Assembly (NCBI RefSeq): GCF_000212815.1
Contig: NZ_GL890986.1
Coordinates: 248,001 to 312,000 of the forward strand
From: Streptococcus sanguinis SK49
GTDB taxonomy: Bacteria > Bacillota > Bacilli > Lactobacillales > Streptococcaceae
Length of the DNA: 64,000 nt
Direction: 5' to 3'
Of the stretch, positions 46,419 to 59,311 are shown in pieces. How positions within the stretch are numbered: position 1 is the stretch's first letter; each line of letters starts with the position of its first letter. The notes under the pieces were generated by a model. That model made no database searches. It saw only the letters and a program-made list of their open reading frames with translations, and had not been told where the DNA came from. The position numbers and the translations under genes are program-made.

Positions 46419-46545
46419 TTTTCTCCTCCTTTGATTTGATAAGCCTCATATGCATCTTTCCTTTATTTTTCCAAAGCCGGAAGAATAATAAAGACCAAAT
46501 GCTATTTGAATTCTTACAGCAACCTTTTATCATGTTGTTAACTAT

Positions 46546-46609
46546 ATTATAAGGCAAAGAAATTTTTCCTACTAGTTTATTTTGTCACCGACTGACATGA
46601 CAAATGTCA
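46546..46609 (-). promoter_or_regulatory. Promoter and candidate response-regulator operator of the ABC/two-component operon
   Basis: A TATAAT -10 (46546-46551) on the minus strand lacks a good -35. Upstream lie two interlocking dyads: TGACAT-N5-ATGTCA (46593-46609) and TTTGTCA-N10-TGACAAA (46581-46604). They are placed where an activator such as the linked LuxR-type regulator could bind. Confidence 0.6.
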
Positions 46610-46623
46610 CTTTCTCACATAAA

Positions 46624-46645
46624 AAAAACGAGTTACCTCGTTTTT
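46624..46645 (-). terminator. Terminator after the small lipoprotein gene
   Basis: A 9-bp stem AAAAACGAG / CTCGTTTTT with loop TTAC, followed on the minus strand by further T's, begins four bases beyond the stop of the 46649 gene. Confidence 0.85.
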
Positions 46646-46648
46646 ATT

Positions 46649-47209
46649 CTATTCTTCTTTCAGACCATTCATTTTCAGTCCTAAAATAACTCTTTCCGGT
46701 GTAAAATCTTTAAAGTCTCCTAAGCCCAACTCTTTTTTACTTGAAATTTTATCTATTTGTTCCTTTGTAAGCTTTTGAAAATCCATCTCAACATTTGTTT
46801 GAAACTTTCTCTCCGCTGTTACAGAGTAGACTAATTTAAAACCATCGATTGCTAGTAATTCAGCAATCTGAGGATCTTGTTTTATTCCTTCTTGAATACG
46901 AGTTGTCATTTCTTCAGGAGATAACTCAGCGTATGATAATGCTATATCTTGCGGTAAGTCTGTCTGCATTTCCATGTGCAAACTAAGAATCTTTTTCCCT
47001 TGATAGGTTACCGTATCACGATGATGAACCCCTTGAACATCTCCTACTAAGGTTTTACTTGTTATCTCAACTTCTCCAGAAGATTTTGATGACGAATCAA
47101 TTTGCAGGCTAGACTGCTTTACAGACTCACTATCAGAACGATGTTCTGCCATAGAACATCCTGTCAATAGGAATAAAGCCGTTGAAAATATTATTAATAA
47201 TTTTCTCAT
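46649..47209 (-). CDS. Small lipoprotein, possibly DUF1307/YehR family
   Basis: A 186-residue putative lipoprotein. I start at the ATG at 47209 (AAGGTG upstream); the signal MRKLLIIFSTALFLLTGC gives lipidation at Cys18. After a Ser-rich linker (residues 20-50) the mature domain has the alternating pattern of the DUF1307/YehR family (TVTYQGKKILSLHMEM near 70, ending with KDFTPERVILGLKMNGL). Function unknown. Family assignment is tentative. It stands alone with its own promoter and terminator. Confidence 0.7.
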   Translation of the reverse strand: MRKLLIIFSTALFLLTGCSMAEHRSDSESVKQSSLQIDSSSKSSGEVEITSKTLVGDVQGVHHRDTVTYQGKKILSLHMEMQTDLPQDIALSYAELSPEEMTTRIQEGIKQDPQIAELLAIDGFKLVYSVTAERKFQTNVEMDFQKLTKEQIDKISSKKELGLGDFKDFTPERVILGLKMNGLKEE

Positions 47210-47239
47210 TATACACCTTTTTCTATAATTATATACCAT

Positions 47240-47268
47240 AGTATAGCATAATACCATAAATTTGTCTA
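47240..47268 (-). promoter_or_regulatory. Promoter of the small lipoprotein gene
   Basis: TAGACA (47263-47268), 17-base spacer, extended TGC-TATACT (47240-47245) on the minus strand. Two copies of ATACCATA (47233-47240 and 47251-47258, 18 bases apart) flank the -10. Confidence 0.65.
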
Positions 47269-47287
47269 AATATTTTTTTAAAAAAAA

Positions 47288-47323
47288 CAAAAAAGGCTGC
47301 AGGAAAGCTTCCTTTGCCTTTTT
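47288..47323 (-). terminator. Terminator after fakA
   Basis: An outer stem AAAAAAGGC / GCCTTTTTT enclosing an inner AGGAA / TTCCT pair lies about 50 bases beyond the fakA stop, with a T-rich tail on the minus strand. Confidence 0.75.
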
Positions 47324-47371
47324 TTATTATAAAATTTAAAAGTCAAATCCAAGAATCGTTAGACTATAGTA

Positions 47372-49036
47372 TTATTCAACACTAAAAATATATGGATAAA
47401 CCGGCTGACTGCCCTGATGAATTTCTACTTCGACATCCTCGAATTGTTCCATCAAATCTTGAGCAAGACTGCTAGCCAACTCTTCGCTGCCATCTTCACC
47501 GATATAGATAGAGACAATCTCGCTGTCTTCATTGAGCATCTTGCTGAACGTTTCTTTCAAAGTTGCCAGCATATCTGGATTAGAAACAACAATCTTACCA
47601 TCCACCATACCGAGGTTGTCATTCTCATGAATTTCCAAGCCATCAATCGTCGTATCGCGAACCGCAGTCGTCACGCTGCCGCTGACTACTTCTGCCAAGG
47701 CTGCAGTCATACGCTCTTGGTTTTCCTCGATAGTCTTGCCGCCATCAAAAGCTAGGAGACTGGTCAAACCTTGAGGAATCGTGCGAGTCTCAATAACAGC
47801 TGCAGGCTGTTCAATCACTTCTGCTGCTGATTGGGCTGCCATGAAGATGTTTTTATTATTTGGCAAGATAATAATATTACGAGCATTGACTTGCTCCACA
47901 GCTTTGATAAAGTCTTCCGTTGATGGGTTCATAGTTTGCCCGCCAGAGATGATATAGTCAACTCCCTGAGCCTTAAAGATTTCAGCCAGACCATCACCAG
48001 CCACTACAGCGATAATCGCAAACTCTTTTTCTTGAGCCGGCTTAGCTGAGCGCTCTTCCTTTTCAACCTGCGCTTCGTGCTGGTTGCGCATATTGTCAAC
48101 CTTGACCTTGACCAGACTACCATACTTGAGACCTTCCTGCATAACCAGTCCTGGATCTTCGGTATGGACATGGACTTTGACAATTTCATCATCGTTGACT
48201 ACCAGCAGGGAATCTCCCAAATCGTTGAGGTAGTTGCGGAACTCATCATAATCAAAGTCTTTTACATAGGTTGGTCCTTTCTTGAGAGCCACCATGATTT
48301 CTGTACAATAGCCGAAAGTAATGTCTTCTGTTGCCACATGGCCAGCTACAGACTTATGATGCTCAGCATTGATCATCTCAGACATGGTCGCAGGTGTCGC
48401 CACAAAGTCCTCAGATGCGATATATTCGCCTGTAAGTGCAGACAAGAATCCTTCATAGATAAAGACAAGCCCTTGACCGCCAGAGTCCACAACACCGACT
48501 TCTTTCAGAACCGGCAGCATATCAGGTGTCTTAGCCAGAGCAGCTTTTGCTCCTTCAAGAGCCGCTTTCATAACTTCTACAGCGTCATTAGTGACTTCAG
48601 CTTTCTTCTTGGCACCAATAGCCGCACCGCGAGAAACAGTCAAAATCGTTCCCTCAACCGGCTTCATAACTGCCTTGTAAGCCACTTCTACACCAGACTG
48701 AAAGGCCAGAGCAAGATCTTCACCAGTCAGCTCTTCATGCTCTTTCACACTTTGAGAAAAACCGCGGAAAAGCTGGGAGGTGATAACGCCTGAGTTACCA
48801 CGCGCACCCATCAAAAGACCTTTCGCAAAGATACCTGCCGCTTCGCCAACTGTTGAAGCAGACTTGTCTGCCACTTCCTTAGCACCATTTTCAATGGTCA
48901 TGCCCATGTTGGTACCTGTATCTCCGTCTGGAACTGGGAAGACATTCAAAGAATTTACATATTCAGCCTGTTTATTTAAGCGAGTAGATGCTGCCTGCAC
49001 CATTTCTTGGAATAAACTAGTAGTAATATTTGCCAC
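47372..49036 (-). CDS. fakA: Fatty acid kinase catalytic subunit FakA (DAK2-domain protein, YloV)
   Basis: FakA phosphorylates fatty acids bound to FakB proteins, feeding exogenous fatty acids into phospholipid synthesis. The 554-residue protein has the N-terminal DAK2 ATP-binding domain (VPDGDTGTNMGMT near residues 35-47 and GARGNSGVI near 77) and a C-terminal FakB-interacting region. The start is GTG at 49036, seven bases after AGGAG. It begins two bases after the Asp23 gene stop. It connects functionally with the FabT-controlled cluster, since acyl-phosphate products pass to PlsX and acyl-ACP. Confidence 0.93.
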   Translation of the reverse strand: MANITTSLFQEMVQAASTRLNKQAEYVNSLNVFPVPDGDTGTNMGMTIENGAKEVADKSASTVGEAAGIFAKGLLMGARGNSGVITSQLFRGFSQSVKEHEELTGEDLALAFQSGVEVAYKAVMKPVEGTILTVSRGAAIGAKKKAEVTNDAVEVMKAALEGAKAALAKTPDMLPVLKEVGVVDSGGQGLVFIYEGFLSALTGEYIASEDFVATPATMSEMINAEHHKSVAGHVATEDITFGYCTEIMVALKKGPTYVKDFDYDEFRNYLNDLGDSLLVVNDDEIVKVHVHTEDPGLVMQEGLKYGSLVKVKVDNMRNQHEAQVEKEERSAKPAQEKEFAIIAVVAGDGLAEIFKAQGVDYIISGGQTMNPSTEDFIKAVEQVNARNIIILPNNKNIFMAAQSAAEVIEQPAAVIETRTIPQGLTSLLAFDGGKTIEENQERMTAALAEVVSGSVTTAVRDTTIDGLEIHENDNLGMVDGKIVVSNPDMLATLKETFSKMLNEDSEIVSIYIGEDGSEELASSLAQDLMEQFEDVEVEIHQGSQPVYPYIFSVE

Positions 49037-49861: not shown

Positions 49862-50524
49862 CTAAACATAGCTAATCTTCAAAGAGCCGAAAGATACATC
49901 GCCTCTGACATAGAGAGTTTTTCTCTTTTCATTGACATTGCGAGGATTATAGACAGAGGCAAAGGCATTATCTACATCCAGCTCTACACGCCAGTCACTG
50001 GGCACATAAAGCATCACACTGCCAAAAGATAGATCCACTTCAAAAGTTGCTGAGTCCCCTTCGATAGTCGCATTATCAAAATAAACCGATGCACTTCCAA
50101 AAGCACAGTCTAACTTTTCATAGGTGAAGTTATCTGAGTTGATATAGCGCGTGCCACTGCCAAAAGCAATATCATCTTTTGAGGAAGAAGAGGCAGCCGA
50201 GAAGATACGCCCCTTAAAAATGCGCTGGGGCTTGAAAATCATATTGAGACCAATACAAGCCAGAATACCACCCAAAACCAAGGTTCCTGTTGAAATAGCT
50301 AAAAAGTGGTAAACGGCATTGGCAATAATCAGCGCAATAACTGCCATGATAAGCCCAGTACCAAAGTCTCTTTCTAAGAAATTTTCCAAGGCGAAATAGG
50401 CGAACATTGCAACTACTAGCATGGGCCAAATATTAAAATTGAAGGCAGGAATCCCAAAATTCCCCTGCAGCAGAACCCAAGCTGCCAAGACTAGAAAGCC
50501 GATTCCAAAAATTGTTTTTTTCAT
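49862..50524 (-). CDS. LiaF-like membrane protein partnered with a LytTR regulator
   Basis: A 220-residue protein with four membrane segments in the first 100 residues and a C-terminal LiaF-type beta-helical domain (FGSGTRYINSDNF, DCAFGSASVYFDN, DLSFGSVMLYVPSDW, NAFASVYNP), the repeating FGS pattern being typical of the DUF2154/LiaF C-terminal fold. LiaF proteins inhibit an envelope-stress kinase; here no kinase is adjacent, but a LytTR regulator gene lies just five bases upstream and shares the transcript. It probably acts as a membrane inhibitor or sensor of that regulator. Confidence 0.85.
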   Translation of the reverse strand: MKKTIFGIGFLVLAAWVLLQGNFGIPAFNFNIWPMLVVAMFAYFALENFLERDFGTGLIMAVIALIIANAVYHFLAISTGTLVLGGILACIGLNMIFKPQRIFKGRIFSAASSSSKDDIAFGSGTRYINSDNFTYEKLDCAFGSASVYFDNATIEGDSATFEVDLSFGSVMLYVPSDWRVELDVDNAFASVYNPRNVNEKRKTLYVRGDVSFGSLKISYV

Positions 50525-50529
50525 GATAA

Positions 50530-50976
50530 TTACCTCACTTCACTTAACTTTTCTTTTACTAACTGATAATAATGCCTAGACACATGCACCTGTTTATGGG
50601 TATTGTAAAACTGGACAGTGCTCGTTCCTGAAAAGGACTTATCCAAAGCATAGATTGCCTTGATATTGGCAATGGTGGACTTAGAAATCCGACAGAAATA
50701 ACGGGGCAGAATCTCTTCTAACTCATAGAGCTTTAGCTTGACCTCATAAGCATCATTGCGGGCATGGGCAAAAATCTTGCTGCCGTCCGTCTCGAAAAAG
50801 AGAATGTCCGCTAAATCAAGAAAGTACTCACTGCTTTCCTTATAGAAAAGAATGGATGGAGTCGCCGTTTCTTCCAGAGCTTCCTGGATACGCTGAATCC
50901 GCTCATCCAGCCGCGAAACTTTTATCACCATTTCTGTTTCATCCAAACTCTGATCTAATTCAATCCGAATGTTCAT
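50530..50976 (-). CDS. LytTR-domain transcription regulator without receiver
   Basis: A 148-residue DNA-binding protein. The C-terminal LytTR domain covers about residues 50-148 (LADILFFETDGSKIFA, then RYFCRISKSTIANIKAI and VHVSRHYYQLVKEKL). The N-terminal 50 residues form a helical segment and there is no phospho-receiver domain, as in the LytTR Regulatory Systems (HdrR, BrsR of S. mutans), where activity is governed by a membrane partner. Two 9-base direct repeats spaced as LytTR proteins require lie at its own promoter, indicating autoregulation. AAGGAGAG ribosome site. Confidence 0.92.
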   Translation of the reverse strand: MNIRIELDQSLDETEMVIKVSRLDERIQRIQEALEETATPSILFYKESSEYFLDLADILFFETDGSKIFAHARNDAYEVKLKLYELEEILPRYFCRISKSTIANIKAIYALDKSFSGTSTVQFYNTHKQVHVSRHYYQLVKEKLSEVR

Positions 50977-51004
50977 AGACTCTCCTTTCCATCTGCTTAT
51001 CTTT

Positions 51005-51072
51005 ATTATAACAAGAAACTCCCGAGAAACAAGGCCTTTTCAGTAAGTGGTCAATTTTGACCGGTAAGTGGT
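51005..51072 (-). promoter_or_regulatory. LytTR direct repeats and promoter of the LytTR/LiaF-like operon
   Basis: Reading the minus strand, ACCACTTAC occurs twice (51064-51072 and 51043-51051) separated by exactly 12 bases, the geometry known for LytTR dimers. Ten bases further is TTGTTT (51027-51032), a 16-base spacer and extended TGT-TATAAT (51005-51010). The repeats thus sit just upstream of the -35, fitting activation. Confidence 0.85.
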
Positions 51073-51799: not shown

Positions 51800-52585
51800 T
51801 TACGATCCTGCACTTTCGTAGGCGTCTAAGCCCCTGTCCCAGAGTTTGAGCGAAATGAAAAAGAAAACAAGGGAAACTAGAATCAAACCTCCGATATTAA
51901 AGAGTCCATTCTTTTCCTGCAAGAAATAGCTAGCTGGATAGTAGGCCGTAAAGGCGAAAGGCACAATAAAACTAATCAACCAACGGATAAGCGAATGGTA
52001 AATCGAAATCGGGTACTTGGCAAAATCATTGAACATATAGAAAATGTAGATCATAGCGCCTGATTGCTTGGTCCAAAAAGCAATACTAGCTGTCGCTATT
52101 TTTAAGGAAGTATAAATCAAGGTCGCAAAAGGAATACAGACTAGGAAAAGCAGGAATTTGGGAAAGGTCCAGCTAATACTGGTGACCGTTGTTGCCAGAA
52201 GGATTCCACCAACCAAAAGTTCGCCCAAGGCATCAATCTGAAAGGTTTCAACTAGGATGTGAAAGAGTGGATTGATAGGACGAGTCAGGTATTTGTCAAA
52301 CTCTCCCTTGCGCACCAAGCGTTGCCCCAGTGCCCAGAGATTGTCAAAAAAGAGATGGTCCAATCCCTTGGGAATTAAGGAAAATCCATAGATAAAGGCA
52401 ATTTCTTGAAAGGTCCAGCCCTCTAAGGAAGGAATATGTTGAAAGAGTACGTTTAGAAACAAGAGGTTCAAGCCTTGGGTCAGGAAGACACCTAAAACAC
52501 CAACCACAAAATCAACCTTATATTCCATGATTTGCTTGATGTATTGTCTGATAAAAATCAGATGCATGCGCTGATATTTTTTCAT
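51800..52585 (-). CDS. ABC-2 type transporter permease (second of pair, DUF990-like)
   Basis: A 261-residue membrane protein with about six helices, of the ABC-2/DUF990 type. It forms a pair with the 52587-53405 protein and the ATPase upstream. The start at 52585 has AAGGAGG and lies one base after the previous stop. Substrate unknown; such triads export drugs, lipids or polysaccharides. Confidence 0.88.
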   Translation of the reverse strand: MKKYQRMHLIFIRQYIKQIMEYKVDFVVGVLGVFLTQGLNLLFLNVLFQHIPSLEGWTFQEIAFIYGFSLIPKGLDHLFFDNLWALGQRLVRKGEFDKYLTRPINPLFHILVETFQIDALGELLVGGILLATTVTSISWTFPKFLLFLVCIPFATLIYTSLKIATASIAFWTKQSGAMIYIFYMFNDFAKYPISIYHSLIRWLISFIVPFAFTAYYPASYFLQEKNGLFNIGGLILVSLVFFFISLKLWDRGLDAYESAGS

Positions 52586-52586
52586 A

Positions 52587-53405
52587 CTAACCTCCTTGAA
52601 TGGTGATAAATGACTGGACTCTTTTCCAAATCAACTGAGACAAGCCCACCATCACTAAAAGCCAAAACAACTGCAAGAAAAGAGCCTGAAGAATCTGACT
52701 AGTATCGTATTTCCCAACAATGATCATGACCGGAGTATAAATCAAGGATGAAAAAGGCAAAAAGGACAGAATATCTGAAACAATCTTAGGAAAGAAAGCC
52801 AAGGGAATCAAACTCCCCGACATAAAGGCAATCAGAGAATTCTTGAGCAGATTAGAGCCCCATAGATTTTTAAAAACAAAAGCTGAAAATCCAAAACAGA
52901 TATTAAAGAAGAAATTGATCAGGTAGGCTAGCGTTAAGCTAAAGAGATAAATGACAGTTAATCCCAGCACTTCTAAAATGCCTTGCCCAGATAAGATTTT
53001 CATCAAAACAATGACACTTAAAAATGGGAGGCCGACAGAGACAAAAATCAACCACTTGGAACCAAGCTCGGTGAAGAGATAAGAGGCCGCAAAGTGCACT
53101 GGTCTCAGCAAGCGCATGATAATGGAGCCGTCCTTGACCTCCTCTCCAATCATAAAGGAAGAATCCGACTTGGTCAAAAGGTTAGTCACAAAACTCATGA
53201 TGATGTAGAAGGTGATATCCGCCATACTGAAGCCCTGAATCAAAGACTCTTGCGACGAATCAAAGACTGCCTTCCAGAGATAGAAAGCGACAAAAGCACC
53301 CATGACATCGCCAATTCGATAGAGAATAAAGTTGACTCGATAGGTAATCAACTCCTGAATTCCTGCATTGATAAAGGGTTTATAACGTCTCCACAATTTG
53401 ACCAT
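52587..53405 (-). CDS. ABC-2 type transporter permease (first of pair, DUF990-like)
   Basis: A 272-residue membrane protein with six predicted helices. I use the ATG at 53405 (MVKLWRRYKPF), preceded by AAGGAG; the longer frame would run into the ATPase 3' end. It lies one base before the second permease and directly after the ATPase, so all three are co-translated. Confidence 0.88.
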   Translation of the reverse strand: MVKLWRRYKPFINAGIQELITYRVNFILYRIGDVMGAFVAFYLWKAVFDSSQESLIQGFSMADITFYIIMSFVTNLLTKSDSSFMIGEEVKDGSIIMRLLRPVHFAASYLFTELGSKWLIFVSVGLPFLSVIVLMKILSGQGILEVLGLTVIYLFSLTLAYLINFFFNICFGFSAFVFKNLWGSNLLKNSLIAFMSGSLIPLAFFPKIVSDILSFLPFSSLIYTPVMIIVGKYDTSQILQALFLQLFWLLVMVGLSQLIWKRVQSFITIQGG

Positions 53406-53406
53406 C

Positions 53407-54399
53407 TTAGAGCTCCTTTCGGTAGAAGCGACGGATAATATCCTCAATATCCGTATCCACCATCTTCAAATCACGGATCTCAAAATCAGACAGGGTTTGC
53501 TTGATAATATCAGCTGACTGGTAGCGTGAACTATCGTATTGAATGTTGAGGCTATTTCCTTGTCTTTCAATAGTGATATCAGGCAAGCCTTCATAGTGAG
53601 AGACAAGATGACTTTGCCCTGGCACCAGTTCAAAGGAAAGTGTCTTCATCTTACCAAAGGTTTCCTTGAGCTGGCTAACCGTTCCATCAAAAATCTCATG
53701 CCCCTTGTCAATCATAAAAATCCGATCGCAAAGTTGCTCAATATCACTTAAGTCGTGAGTGGTCAAGAGAATAGTTGTTTCTTCCTCCTGATTGATTTGG
53801 GTAATGGCCCGACGAATGTTGTCCTTGACCGAAACATCCAAACCAATGGTCGGCTCATCTAAAAAGAGAACCTTGGGATTGTGGAGCAAGGAAGCCGCAA
53901 TGTCCGCCCGCATCCGTTGACCAAGTGAAAGAGTCCGCACGGGATCCTTGATAAAGTCCTTCAAATCCAAGACTTCATTCAAAAAGTCCATACGTTTGTG
54001 AAAGAGCGCGTCTGGCACATCGTAAATCTCTTTCAAGACCGTGTAAGTCTCTTGCAGAGCCAAATCCCACCACAACTGGGTTCTTTGCCCGAAGACCACT
54101 CCAATATCCTTGACATAGTCTTGGCGATTATCCTGCGGAATCTTGCCATTGATTCGACACAAACCAGAAGTGGGCTTCAAAATCCCGGTCAGAATTTTGA
54201 TGGTTGTTGACTTCCCAGCACCATTGGCCCCGATGAAACCTAAAATCTGCCCTTTTGGAACCTCAAAGGTTAAATCCTTGACCGCTTCAAAGGTCTGCTT
54301 TTCGGGATGAATAAAGGAGCGCAAAGCTCCTTTCAAACCTGGTTCCTTAACTGTCTTCACAAAATTTTTCTGAAGATGCTCTACTTCTATCATTGCCAT
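53407..54399 (-). CDS. ABC transporter ATP-binding protein for the DUF990 permease pair
   Basis: A 330-residue ATPase. Walker A GANGAGKSTT is near residue 57, signature LSLGQRMRADIAASLLHNP near 160 and Walker B KVLFLDEPTIGLD near 179. The signature reads LSLGQ rather than LSGGQ, as is common in this subgroup. The long region after the core (about 240-330) is a regulatory C-terminal domain. It is the first gene of a three-gene operon with no linked regulator. Confidence 0.9.
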   Translation of the reverse strand: MAMIEVEHLQKNFVKTVKEPGLKGALRSFIHPEKQTFEAVKDLTFEVPKGQILGFIGANGAGKSTTIKILTGILKPTSGLCRINGKIPQDNRQDYVKDIGVVFGQRTQLWWDLALQETYTVLKEIYDVPDALFHKRMDFLNEVLDLKDFIKDPVRTLSLGQRMRADIAASLLHNPKVLFLDEPTIGLDVSVKDNIRRAITQINQEEETTILLTTHDLSDIEQLCDRIFMIDKGHEIFDGTVSQLKETFGKMKTLSFELVPGQSHLVSHYEGLPDITIERQGNSLNIQYDSSRYQSADIIKQTLSDFEIRDLKMVDTDIEDIIRRFYRKEL

Positions 54400-54557
54400 A
54401 CGTTTCTCAATATCCTATCATTCAATTCATGTTACAGACCATTTCCCCACCTAACTCAGGAAAAACAGAATCTTATCTCCTCACTATACTACCACTTTTA
54501 CTATCAAACTAACATAGGAAATTCAAAAATAATTATCATATTTTATCACACACCAAA

Positions 54558-54581
54558 AAACCCACCCTTACGGGCAGGTTT
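54558..54581 (-). terminator. Terminator after adcAII
   Basis: A GC-rich hairpin AAACCCACCC / GGGCAGGTTT with a two-base internal mismatch and loop TTAC, followed on the minus strand by T's, about 40 bases beyond the adcAII stop. Confidence 0.7.
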
Positions 54582-54619
54582 CTGTTTTGTATTGTTCAGC
54601 TAGATTATGCTTTACCTTC

Positions 54620-55537
54620 TCATTTCAATTCTTTAGCCAAGATACTCATGTTTTCTTCTAGATTCTCTAGGTAGTTTTTATCATTTTGAGGATCTGCTTC
54701 CAAAGGATTGAGAGTTTTTAGCCTGACACCTGTTGACTTGACGAGCGTTTCTGCCACTTTCGACGATGCATTGCTTTCGGTAAAAATCGTTTTAACTTTA
54801 TAGGTTTTCACAAATTCTTGAATTTCAGTAAGCTGCCTTGCATTTGGCTCTTGTTCAGGAGAAATCCCTGCAATACCTAGCTGCTGCAAACCAAACCGCT
54901 TTGCTAAATACGAGAACGCAGTATGTTGAGTGACGAAAGTCTTTTGCTTAGCCTTTTCAAAGATTGGTTGGTATTTTTTGGTCAATTCTTGAGCTTTAGA
55001 AATGAATTTCTTAGCATTTTTTTGATATATTTCCTTGTGTTCTTTATCGAGTTCAGATAGCTTATCCGCAATAATCTGCGCTTCTTCACCAGCTTTTTCA
55101 GGATCTAGCCATGTATGAGGATCATAAAGAGTTTTTTCATCGATTCCTTCGCTAGCTTCCACGTCTTCCAAACCCGGTACACGTTCCAGGGGCATTCCTT
55201 CGGAAGCTTCAAGTACTTTCACCTTAGATTTTTGCAAATTTGGATCCAAGCTCCCCGCCCACGACTCTAAGGTATGTGAATGATAGACAAAAACATCCGC
55301 ATCATAGATAGCAGCTACATCATTAGCCGATGGTTCAAATGAATGGATCCCTGTACTAGATTGAATCATGCGAACATCATTCAAATCACCAGATACTTCT
55401 TTAACCATGGCATAAACCGGATAAAAACTGGTCACAATCTTCAAACCTTTAGCTTGTTGTTCTTCTTTCTGAGTACACGCTCCCAGCATCAAAGCTAGTA
55501 TACTCAGCACTAGTAATACTGCAGTTCTTTTTTTCAT
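54620..55537 (-). CDS. adcAII: Zinc-binding lipoprotein AdcA-II (Lmb family)
   Basis: AdcA-II is a surface lipoprotein that scavenges Zn2+ and passes it to the AdcCB importer encoded elsewhere. The start is the ATG at 55537 (AAGGAG six bases upstream; a GTG five codons earlier would put the ribosome site in the gene), giving 305 residues. Signal MKKRTAVLLVLSILALMLGAC, lipidated at Cys21. Metal-ligand histidines are in GIHSFEPS, DPHTWLDP and TQHTAFSY, with an acidic ligand near the C-terminus. It lacks the His-rich loop of AdcA, as AdcA-II does. It follows the pht gene by 20 bases in one transcript. Confidence 0.93.
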   Translation of the reverse strand: MKKRTAVLLVLSILALMLGACTQKEEQQAKGLKIVTSFYPVYAMVKEVSGDLNDVRMIQSSTGIHSFEPSANDVAAIYDADVFVYHSHTLESWAGSLDPNLQKSKVKVLEASEGMPLERVPGLEDVEASEGIDEKTLYDPHTWLDPEKAGEEAQIIADKLSELDKEHKEIYQKNAKKFISKAQELTKKYQPIFEKAKQKTFVTQHTAFSYLAKRFGLQQLGIAGISPEQEPNARQLTEIQEFVKTYKVKTIFTESNASSKVAETLVKSTGVRLKTLNPLEADPQNDKNYLENLEENMSILAKELK

Positions 55538-55557
55538 ACAATACTCCTTCACCTCAG

Positions 55558-57978
55558 CTAATCAGTTACTTCTGTACTTGACACAGAAGCTGAAGAAGCA
55601 GATTGCAGCAAGGCTAGCAATTTTTCTACTTCTGCCATGATGTTATTATTATCCATAGTCCCTAAATTAAGATTATTTCGCAATCCTGTTAAGGTCTCAG
55701 TTGCATTGGATTTCAAACTTGGATCCGTCGTCTTTTCAAGTAAGTCTTCCGCCTCTTGCAACTTAGCTTCTACTTTAGCAGTTTCAACTTGAGGTACTTC
55801 TGGCTCAGTTGGTGTTTCCTCTTCAACTTCTTCTTGAGGTTTCTCTGGGCTAACAGCATCCTCCTTGTCATCTTTTTTACCTAAAACATGATCACTTGCA
55901 TTCCCCCATCCATCGCTAGACTGTGGTCGCTCATCTGGATGTTCAACATAATACTTGATAGTTGCAAATAAATCCTCTAATGTATAGCCATTAGGAGCTC
56001 GGTAAGTCTTATCATCGAACCAAGCAAATTTGATGTTGTGGTAGTGATCCTTATGAGGGATAATCAGATTACCATTTTTAACTGCTACAGTATGCTCAAC
56101 ATTGTAAGGTAGACGAACGAGCGGTATCCGTTTCTCTCCTTGAACACGTTCATAAATCGCAGCTGCACTTTCTCCACTTGGATTGGCTTTGGAATCATCT
56201 GTTGGTGCAGGTGGAAGAAGACCTTTTTCTTTAGTATACGCCTGAGCAGCTGCTTTTTCTTTAGCTGAAAGACTATCTTTTCCTATCCAGTGACTGTGTC
56301 CCATATGAGGGGTTACATAAGCATCTCCTTCGTCGCTGATAATATCCCGGGCATCAAAGATATATCCATCAGATGTCGTATATTTGTCAGCCAGCTGGGC
56401 TACTCGAACTTCGGTTTCAGTATACTCAATCTGTGAATTTGCTTTGCCGAGACGTTCTGGATGATTGATAGGCGCAAGAAATGCTAATAAGTCATCAATT
56501 AATTGCACCTTATCACTTGTCTCATCATTTAAACGCTTGACTAAATCATCCAAGACTTGAAAATCTGACAAACGTCCCTTATTTTCTAGTAATTGCTGAT
56601 GGGTCTGACTCAGAAGACCATATACTTTATCGTAAAATTCTTGATTTTTCGGTTCAACTGATTCTTTCTTAGCTTGCAGGACATGAGATATGCTTTTCTG
56701 CTTCGCCAATTTATTTTCAATCGCTGTAATAATCTCTTTAGGCAAGTCTTTAGCTAAAAGATAGCGGGACACTCCTTTATCCTCTAGCACATAACCGCCA
56801 GCTATTTTCCTAACGACCTGCTGGATTAAATCCTTATCCAATGAATCCGCATGTTCCAAATTTAACTTTGGAGGAAGAATCGGTTTTAAAGCTGGTTGAG
56901 ATGGAGTTGGTATAGGTCTATAAGGTGTCAATCCTAACATAGGTTTATTAGGCTGACTTATAAGAGGAATTGTCCGAGCAAGCTTTTCTTCCAATGCCGA
57001 CATTTGTGTATAAGGAATAAAGTGATAATGATTACCATGCGGCACTGCTACTCCATTTTGTGTTCGACTAGTAATTTGTGCTGGATCAAAGATCAAGCCA
57101 TCTGATTCAACATGACGATGACTAAGTGGAAGATTATAAAGTTGCTGAAGGAGACTCTTAACATCTTCTCCTTGACTCGGTTGATAGTTGTTTGAAATTT
57201 GAGTAAAAGTAGGTTGTGTCTGTATCCAGCCACTGCTTCCATTATTATACGAACGGCTGACTACAGTACTAGCTACTTTTCCTCTACCTGATAGGTAAGC
57301 TTGAGCTGCAGCTAGCTCACTAGGCGACAAATCACTCTTTGGGATATAGTGAAAATGATCACCATGAGGTACAATATACGCATCTCCCGTATCCTCAATA
57401 ATGTCTGAAGCATTAAAAACATAGCCATCATCTGTTGTATAACGGCCTTGAGCTCTAGCTGTTGCTACTTCATTGCTTATTTTCGTAACATTATGACCAT
57501 GTTCCTGTTTTTGACGATTAATCTCTTCCTTACTGCGAATATTATCCGCACGAGCTATATCTTTCAGATAAACATAATATTGTCCATTAACCTTGATAAC
57601 ATATCCACCCTTGACTTCATTGACAATATCCTCAGTCCTAAGTTGATAGTTGGGATCTTTCATCAAAAGATCTTCGCTGAAAATCGCATCATATGGAACT
57701 TTCCCATTATAATAATGATAGTGATCACCATGAGAAGTGACATAACCCTGATCAGTAATTTTGATAACAATCTGCTCCGCGTTAATCCCCTCTTTTTTGC
57801 TTACTTCGTCAGGCGTTAACTCCTCAGACTTTTGAACACCTTGCTTACCATCAATATAGCTAACTCGATTGGATTTTTTAATCGAACTGTTTGCCTGATA
57901 ATAACCTAACTGATGAGCAAAAAGACCCACAGTAGCAATGACAACAATTCCTGTTAAGTATTTCTTATTTTTTTCCAT
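55558..57978 (-). CDS. Histidine triad protein of the Pht family
   Basis: An 806-residue surface protein close to pneumococcal PhtD. Five HxxHxH triads are visible: HGDHYH at residues 83-88, HGDHFH at 205-210, HGNHYH at 314-319, HMGHSH near 570 and HKDHYH near 665. The triads bind zinc and the protein is thought to store it for AdcA-II. The N-terminus (MEKNKKYLTG then a hydrophobic stretch to about 25) is signal-like without a lipobox cysteine, as in Pht proteins. The C-terminal part is Pro/Glu-rich (residues 710-745). It heads the operon under tandem AdcR boxes. Confidence 0.95.
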   Translation of the reverse strand: MEKNKKYLTGIVVIATVGLFAHQLGYYQANSSIKKSNRVSYIDGKQGVQKSEELTPDEVSKKEGINAEQIVIKITDQGYVTSHGDHYHYYNGKVPYDAIFSEDLLMKDPNYQLRTEDIVNEVKGGYVIKVNGQYYVYLKDIARADNIRSKEEINRQKQEHGHNVTKISNEVATARAQGRYTTDDGYVFNASDIIEDTGDAYIVPHGDHFHYIPKSDLSPSELAAAQAYLSGRGKVASTVVSRSYNNGSSGWIQTQPTFTQISNNYQPSQGEDVKSLLQQLYNLPLSHRHVESDGLIFDPAQITSRTQNGVAVPHGNHYHFIPYTQMSALEEKLARTIPLISQPNKPMLGLTPYRPIPTPSQPALKPILPPKLNLEHADSLDKDLIQQVVRKIAGGYVLEDKGVSRYLLAKDLPKEIITAIENKLAKQKSISHVLQAKKESVEPKNQEFYDKVYGLLSQTHQQLLENKGRLSDFQVLDDLVKRLNDETSDKVQLIDDLLAFLAPINHPERLGKANSQIEYTETEVRVAQLADKYTTSDGYIFDARDIISDEGDAYVTPHMGHSHWIGKDSLSAKEKAAAQAYTKEKGLLPPAPTDDSKANPSGESAAAIYERVQGEKRIPLVRLPYNVEHTVAVKNGNLIIPHKDHYHNIKFAWFDDKTYRAPNGYTLEDLFATIKYYVEHPDERPQSSDGWGNASDHVLGKKDDKEDAVSPEKPQEEVEEETPTEPEVPQVETAKVEAKLQEAEDLLEKTTDPSLKSNATETLTGLRNNLNLGTMDNNNIMAEVEKLLALLQSASSASVSSTEVTD

Positions 57979-58128
57979 TGAATATCACTTTCTTTTTTGA
58001 TTACATAGAATTCGCTAAAACCTATCACAATTTACAATTAACTCATAATATACCCCCAAAGAAATCATCTAAATATTTTTTCTATAAAATATAGAAGAAA
58101 CCCAATTTTTAACAACTTACCAAACTAA

Positions 58129-59178: not shown

Positions 59179-59228
59179 TCTTATCAGGCCTCCTCTTATT
59201 TTTTGTGGTTAAACCACTTACATTGTTT

Positions 59229-59311
59229 ATTTTATCACTTTTTCACTAAAATTGCTAGTTTTTCCTGAAATTTTAAAGAATTGCAGGGAGACGCTTAGCC
59301 TTTTTAAGCGT
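59229..59311 (-). promoter_or_regulatory. fba promoter region
   Basis: An extended TGA-TAAAAT -10 (59229-59234) on the minus strand has a weak -35 17 bases upstream. An inverted repeat ACGCTTA / TAAGCGT (59291-59311) lies upstream and GTGGTT / AACCAC (59205-59217) in the leader. No regulator could be named. Confidence 0.5.

Follow-up and report, generated by a model that had tools for sequence, protein, structure and literature searches.

Two adjacent minus-strand genes, with a pair of perfect direct repeats ahead of them, form a compact operon in the window (the whole 64,000-nucleotide stretch of the Streptococcus sanguinis SK49 genome that was analyzed). The first gene encodes a LytTR-family regulator; the second, co-directional and separated from it by 5 bp, encodes a membrane protein that we refer to as the partner. 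Feature positions are given in Table 1.

Table 1. Features of the LytTR operon and its promoter region in the window
Feature	Positions	Strand	Basis
Operator: direct repeats ACCACTTAC-N12-ACCACTTAC	51043..51072	minus	exact match; kept in orthologous promoters
Promoter: -35 TTGTTT (51032-51027), 13 nt, extended -10 TGTTATAAT (51013-51005)	51005..51032	minus	
Receiver-less LytTR-family regulator, 148 aa	50976..50530	minus	ORF and Pfam LytTR
Membrane partner, HdrM/LiaF type, 220 aa	50524..49862	minus	ORF, Pfam, homology, hydrophobic segments

Regulator and membrane partner

The Pfam scan of the regulator returned a LytTR domain alone (E 1.9e-23) and no receiver domain. This domain spans residues 51-144 and follows a variable N-terminal stretch of 50 aa. 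The AlphaFold2 model (pLDDT 74) is reliable in the LytTR part only. When the PDB was searched by sequence, AgrA gave a weak match (E 0.054), and matches to designed repeat proteins were set aside because they covered a short helix only. The sequence-only reading, which had placed a LytTR gene without a receiver five bases before a gene for a four-helix membrane protein, is borne out by the coordinates, by Pfam and by four computed hydrophobic segments in the partner.

These segments lie within partner residues 1-97 and are followed by a beta-rich C-terminal domain at approximately residues 124-219. In the Pfam scan, the partner passed the cut-off for LiaF-TM (38.1 bits; cut-off, 27 bits), remained under that for LiaF-like_C (20.5 bits, E 4.6e-4; cut-off, 29 bits) and showed no kinase domain. 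The AlphaFold2 model has a mean pLDDT of 64, with helices at 3-97, values of 71-88 in the C-terminal domain and poor values elsewhere. A PDB fold search with this model gave no significant match (the Toastrack structure 4opw, named in PMC11237479, ranked 48th with a meaningless E of 5.7), and a PDB sequence search found no solved relative.

The operon is not adjoined by any kinase or receiver gene: the scanned neighbors encode L28, Asp23 and an acetyltransferase, and the nearest histidine kinase lies 5 kb off, behind an ABC transporter. Six LytTR genes were counted in the genome. One belongs to a second LytTR system (L013:1025-1932, minus strand), in which LytTR is combined with DUF3021; its repeat pair, read by eye as ACCAGATAG-12-GCCACATAG and located 10 bp before TTGTTT, differs in sequence from that of the operon. 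A third LytTR pair, also with DUF3021, is found at L014 behind ABC transporter genes.

Operator and promoter

The repeats occupy positions 51072-51064 and 51051-51043. The full operator reads ACCACTTAC-CGGTCAAAATTG-ACCACTTAC and is followed by a 10-bp linker to the -35 element. The regulator ATG at 50976 is preceded by the Shine-Dalgarno-like sequence GGAAAGGAG. The -35 element is poor (3/6 bases), the extended -10 is near-consensus, and a generic sigma-70 scan did not list the operon promoter. A weak -35 with a near-consensus extended -10 would fit a promoter that relies on an activator.

In the window, the exact repeat pair has a single match, and window shuffles gave a mean of 0.02 matches at up to 3 mismatches. 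A second window match with 3 mismatches (59213-59242) lacks the promoter geometry. Over the 2.28-Mb genome we found 3 exact pairs, compared to 0 for the backwards pattern and about 7e-5 expected from base composition. A genus survey gave 47 exact pairs in 38/197 genomes, with no backwards match in the table. The two perfect repeats with their 12-base spacing, ten bases from the -35, as described in the sequence-only reading, are thus exact and beyond chance. The genome search for more sites that it had proposed leads to a candidate regulon (see below).

Kinship with HdrRM-type systems

LytTR Regulatory Systems (LRS) were defined by Zou 2018 (PMC6193735). The operon shows their sequence features: by Pfam, the LytTR regulator has no receiver; it lies directly upstream of a co-directional multi-helix membrane protein; this protein is of the kind with DUF2154 (LiaF C) or DUF3021 and without a kinase, its LiaF-like_C score being below cut-off; and 9-base direct repeats within the 11-13 bp spacing range stand just upstream of the -35. 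According to PMC6193735, the S. mutans operon is induced on loss of the membrane protein, through repeats before the -35, and membrane sequestration is given as the HdrRM mechanism in PMC13384398. In PMC3198404, hdrR appears in the reference list only.

For comparison, an S. mutans-type genome was located by the published hdrRM promoter (1/284 genomes). The partner matched its HdrM with 32% identity over residues 1-219 (E 3.4e-13; 27% in BLASTP), and a search of that genome at E up to 10 gave no match besides HdrM. Homology therefore extends along the whole length, as in the HdrRM subtype. The regulator was 41% identical to HdrR across 98 aa. The published pneumococcal promoter was matched in 21/284 genomes, and the protein behind one such promoter was 38% identical to the window partner over its full length. 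A partner homologue at E 1e-5 or better was present in 234/284 genomes, a count that mixes true LiaF proteins and LRS partners.

The closest published promoter is that of S. anginosus SANR_RS01820/RS01825, given in Table 3 of PMC6193735 as ACCACTTAC-12-ACCACTTAC, 10 bp, TTGAAT-13-TGTTATAAT. Its repeats, distances and -10 are like those in the window; the -35 differs (TTGAAT instead of TTGTTT) and the sequences have diverged. Among the named loci of S. anginosus and S. intermedius the same operon is found, with 66-67% identity in the partner and 76% in the regulator; the S. anginosus one may be another locus than SANR_RS01820/RS01825. S. mutans HdrRM has the same order of a receiver-less LytTR gene and a LiaF/DUF2154 membrane protein gene with repeats before the -35. 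Its repeats, however, are imperfect (ACCTCTTAG, ACCACTTAA) and stand 8 bp from the -35, and its published targets, bacteriocin and competence genes, differ from the candidate targets described below. S. pneumoniae spr1731/spr1730, also included in Table 3 of PMC6193735, departs from the window in its second repeat (ACCACTTGC) and in its neighbors, which were named by eye as PAP2-like and ABC transporter ORFs. The two LytTR-DUF3021 systems of the window's genome share the order of regulator and membrane protein, but the membrane domain is unrelated and one of them has repeats of another sequence.

The partner also resembles LiaF of LiaFSR, with a four-helix N-terminus and a LiaF/Toastrack C-terminal domain. 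This resemblance, together with the LiaF-TM hit and the report that LiaF/Toastrack proteins accompany several regulator types (PMC11237479), could mean that the partner is an accessory of LiaRS or another envelope-stress kinase and that this system controls the LytTR protein as an orphan regulator. We consider this highly improbable. LiaF of LiaFSR is encoded with the kinase LiaS and the regulator LiaR, whereas no kinase or response regulator gene adjoins the operon; the regulator lacks the receiver that marks LytTR response regulators of two-component systems; and the partner aligns along its whole length with both HdrM and the pneumococcal LRS partner. A direct LiaRS link, suggested earlier, is unsupported because of the missing kinase and receiver genes, although envelope sensing by the pair is plausible. 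The LiaF domain had further been presented as a contrast to HdrRM. As a novel feature of the pair it was rejected: DUF2154, the LiaF C-terminal domain, is present in HdrM (PMC6193735), HdrM of the S. mutans-type genome scores in the same LiaF-like_C model (25.9 bits, likewise under cut-off) and it is homologous to the partner over the full length. The LiaF-type character of the partner shows in the LiaF-TM hit and the HdrM homology; its C-terminal domain scores beneath the Pfam cut-off. PMC11237479 likewise describes LytTR genes that share operons with LiaI-LiaF-TM/Toastrack proteins.

By these comparisons the operon is the S. sanguinis-group member of the HdrRM-type LRS, a known kind of system. 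The LRS reading with a self-activating promoter, already put forward in the sequence-only reading, fits every feature testable by sequence alone.

Conservation of the operator

Sixteen named homologous loci were fetched by the membrane protein alone, the repeats not being used for choice. All 16 have a pair of repeats spaced by 12 bases upstream of the regulator, with at most 1 mismatch per 18 bases in 15 of them and 3 in Liquorilactobacillus. Five named S. sanguinis genomes carry a membrane-protein homologue with 97% identity. The wider set comprised 38 readable operons of 39 given; it was partly picked by exact repeats and contains three genomes twice. In 37 of these 38 operons, TTG begins exactly 10 bp past the repeats, the exception again being Liquorilactobacillus.

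Thirteen distinct promoters, also partly picked by exact repeats, were used to calculate mean pairwise identity. The highest values were those of the repeats (0.98), the -10 (0.94) and the -35 (0.91); the linker stood at 0.79, and the spacer (0.58) and the stretch separating the -35 from the -10 (0.51) were lowest. Since 20 loci of the wider operon set and the 21 genomes of the mismatch search described below were chosen for holding repeats, only the 16-loci set is free of that bias. Judged from these alignments, the operator is under constraint: the repeats are kept and the spacer drifts. From S. mutans, we infer that the regulator binds to the repeats.

Candidate regulon

Because the operator is nearly invariant, a regulon can be read from the sequence. 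In the 21 genomes holding the exact pair, 42 pairs were found at up to 2 mismatches, compared to 2 for the backwards pattern. As 30 of the 42 were exact, 12 were new sites with 1-2 mismatches, and eight of these 12 are positioned before one gene, which encodes a 413-aa membrane protein with 12 hydrophobic segments. No family was assigned to it in Pfam, NCBIfam or PDB sequence searches; the segments and inspection by eye suggest that it is probably a transporter. The gene was found in all 16 genomes searched, at 17 loci including one paralogue. Repeats with at most 3 mismatches precede it at 14/17 loci, and the others have 4, 5 and 8 mismatches, the last at the paralogue. In a control with 2000 random 260-bp stretches, 0 had 3 or fewer mismatches, 15 had four and 27 had five. 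In the window's genome, the site is followed, after 10 bp, by TTGTTT and a TATAAT.

The second candidate target is a serine hydrolase with a beta-lactamase fold (PF00144) and four C-terminal hydrophobic segments; an alpha/beta hydrolase gene follows it. Exact repeats precede the 6 copies sharing 96-100% identity with the target copy. The whole serine hydrolase family was rejected as a regulon, the repeats being present at 6/30 loci, absent at 18 and unscored at 6. The third candidate is a CPBP-type protease (PF02517), preceded by repeats with 0-1 mismatch at 5/8 loci and lacking them at 3 paralogues. The serine hydrolase and CPBP sites combine a weak -35 with the -10 TAGGAT, which would again suit a promoter that depends on an activator. 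In addition, a methyltransferase gene in the window's genome only has a site with 2 mismatches and the same geometry, and one further two-mismatch site is present in G041. Sites with 3 mismatches in the window's genome were as frequent as in the backwards control (6 vs 4 at up to 3 mismatches) and were therefore left out of the regulon.

Beta-lactamase-fold serine hydrolases of about 600 aa, often in tandem, gave 1-19 matches per genome (fragments included) in 13/16 genomes searched. In G000, members of this family lie at C1:360415-363989, 785281-787077, 978694-980487 and 1120153-1126689. At L066 (G047 C1:1200478-1201545), a serine hydrolase gene behind an exact operator has lost its middle, with residues 1-169 and 510-598 matching.

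The distant sites could also be chance matches or targets of another LytTR protein, the system controlling its own operon only. The genome has six LytTR genes from which such a protein could come, the distribution of the serine hydrolase and CPBP genes across the group is patchy, and 18 further scored copies of the serine hydrolase lack the repeats. The sites nevertheless agree with the operon operator in the 9-base repeats, the 12-base spacer length and the 10-base promoter distance, and the two spacer versions of the serine hydrolase differ at 6/12 bases and the repeats at none. The second LytTR system, for its part, has a repeat pair of different sequence. Control of the own operon alone is thus rather unlikely in our estimate. 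Given that the operator geometry recurs before a few other genes, we consider it most likely that a small regulon is driven by the loop, a candidate set of export and envelope-modification genes with a defence-like character.

Proposed mechanism

We are confident that the operon encodes an LRS of the HdrRM kind, with a mechanism modeled on S. mutans. To what the DNA itself provides (anatomy, homology, operator conservation and other sites), the analogy would add binding, inhibition, activation, a signal and the roles of the targets. In the resting cell, the partner would prevent the regulator from acting, probably at the membrane, and little transcript would be made. A membrane or envelope signal would relieve the partner, and dimers of the freed regulator would bind the two repeats on one DNA face and recruit RNA polymerase to the promoter with its weak -35. 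The regulator would in this way switch on its own operon in a positive loop and also activate the few target genes with the same operator geometry.

The pneumococcal strain Xen35 was weighed as a natural case of an inhibiting partner and set aside. According to PMC5771582, Xen35 carries lux genes in SP_1914, and SP_1914/SP_1915 are strongly raised. The same source reports that the SP_1915 promoter copied elsewhere gave no light and that recombinants made with PCR products at the same place were dark. Furthermore, PMC11739294 labels spd_1717 as a LytTR gene, and PMC5771582 equates spd_1717 with SP_1914. The strain was not used because the same-site recombinants are dark and the labels for the disrupted gene conflict.

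In the account of PMC6193735, the characterized LRS are those of S. mutans, and the input signal of LRS is not known. S. sanguinis, a naturally competent relative, has a single HdrM-type system, a small number of exact operator sites and allele swaps already made in nature; the short gene lists and natural chimeras provide a way to find the signal and the contact between the partners. The conservation of the operator regulon and the allele mosaic described below look new, and the open-access literature searched gave no account of either.

Allele mosaic

Regulator and partner alleles were typed in 13 genomes. Twelve form one close S. sanguinis group, whose transporter-like targets share 95-100% identity with the one in the window's genome (88% in the 13th genome, G056, from another lineage). 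Six of the 12 have A/A alleles for regulator and partner (G000, G048, G105, G063, G046 and G009), four have chimeric B/A alleles (G035, G257, G145 and G182) and two have C/C alleles (G047 and G173); G056 is B/B. In the B/A genomes, regulator identity is 100% to the G056 protein and 71.6% to type A; for the partner, the figures are 97% to type A and 66.8% to type B. The alleles are deeply diverged (67-72% identity for the regulator, 53-67% for the partner), and the operator is kept in all of them. Between alleles, the regulator has 50-58% identity in its N-terminal 50 residues and 76-83% beyond them; the partner is 51-59% identical in the helices and 58-82% in the C-terminal domain. Along the proteins, therefore, the DNA-reading part is conserved, as is the operator, and the input parts vary.

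Tiles of 500 bases place the exchanges at the operon. G047 and G173 match the window at about 465-475/500 bases per tile on both flanks, at 34/500 in tile 50001-50500 and at about 295/500 in tile 50501-51000. G145 drops over the regulator and promoter only (269 and 318 of 500), with 488 in the membrane gene. In G173, a type C operon lies downstream of a type A operator spacer; thus, one crossover occurred at or next to the operator. We tentatively propose, as a possibility that we rate below even chances by a wide margin, that the operon is a swappable sensor module. Its alleles would be exchanged between lineages by recombination, jointly or as regulator plus promoter alone, with operator and targets constant, so that different inputs feed the same export and envelope regulon under strain-to-strain competition. 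If true, the module would be the LytTR counterpart of polymorphic signaling loci such as agr or com.

The chimeras also bear on whether the two proteins form a functional pair. The regulator could instead be a constitutive or repressing LytTR factor that merely shares an operon with a separate effector, e.g., an immunity protein. Inhibition by the partner rests on analogy with S. mutans, and a type B regulator beside a type A partner in 4/12 genomes is not obviously allowed for a strictly matched pair. Gene order, however, is tight: the gap is 5 bp in 15/16 named loci, and the genes overlap by 4 bases in the remaining one. Moreover, in two more distant genomes (L094 and L095, in G075 and G172) the exact repeats and promoter are intact, the regulator is truncated and the partner is absent behind it; these are two cases only, and such losses would be expected if an unrestrained regulator harmed the cell. 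We regard a separate effector as improbable and retain the HdrRM-type pair.

The operon locus is not alone in varying. Window positions 46501-47500, which include a 213-aa lipoprotein-like ORF (46649..47290), match poorly in all five relatives (101-127/500 bases per tile), and their flanks match well in four of the five. The region 52001-58000, with ABC transporter, zinc-lipoprotein-like and histidine-triad-like ORFs, varies too: much of it is unmatched in the stretches fetched from G046, G047 or G173.
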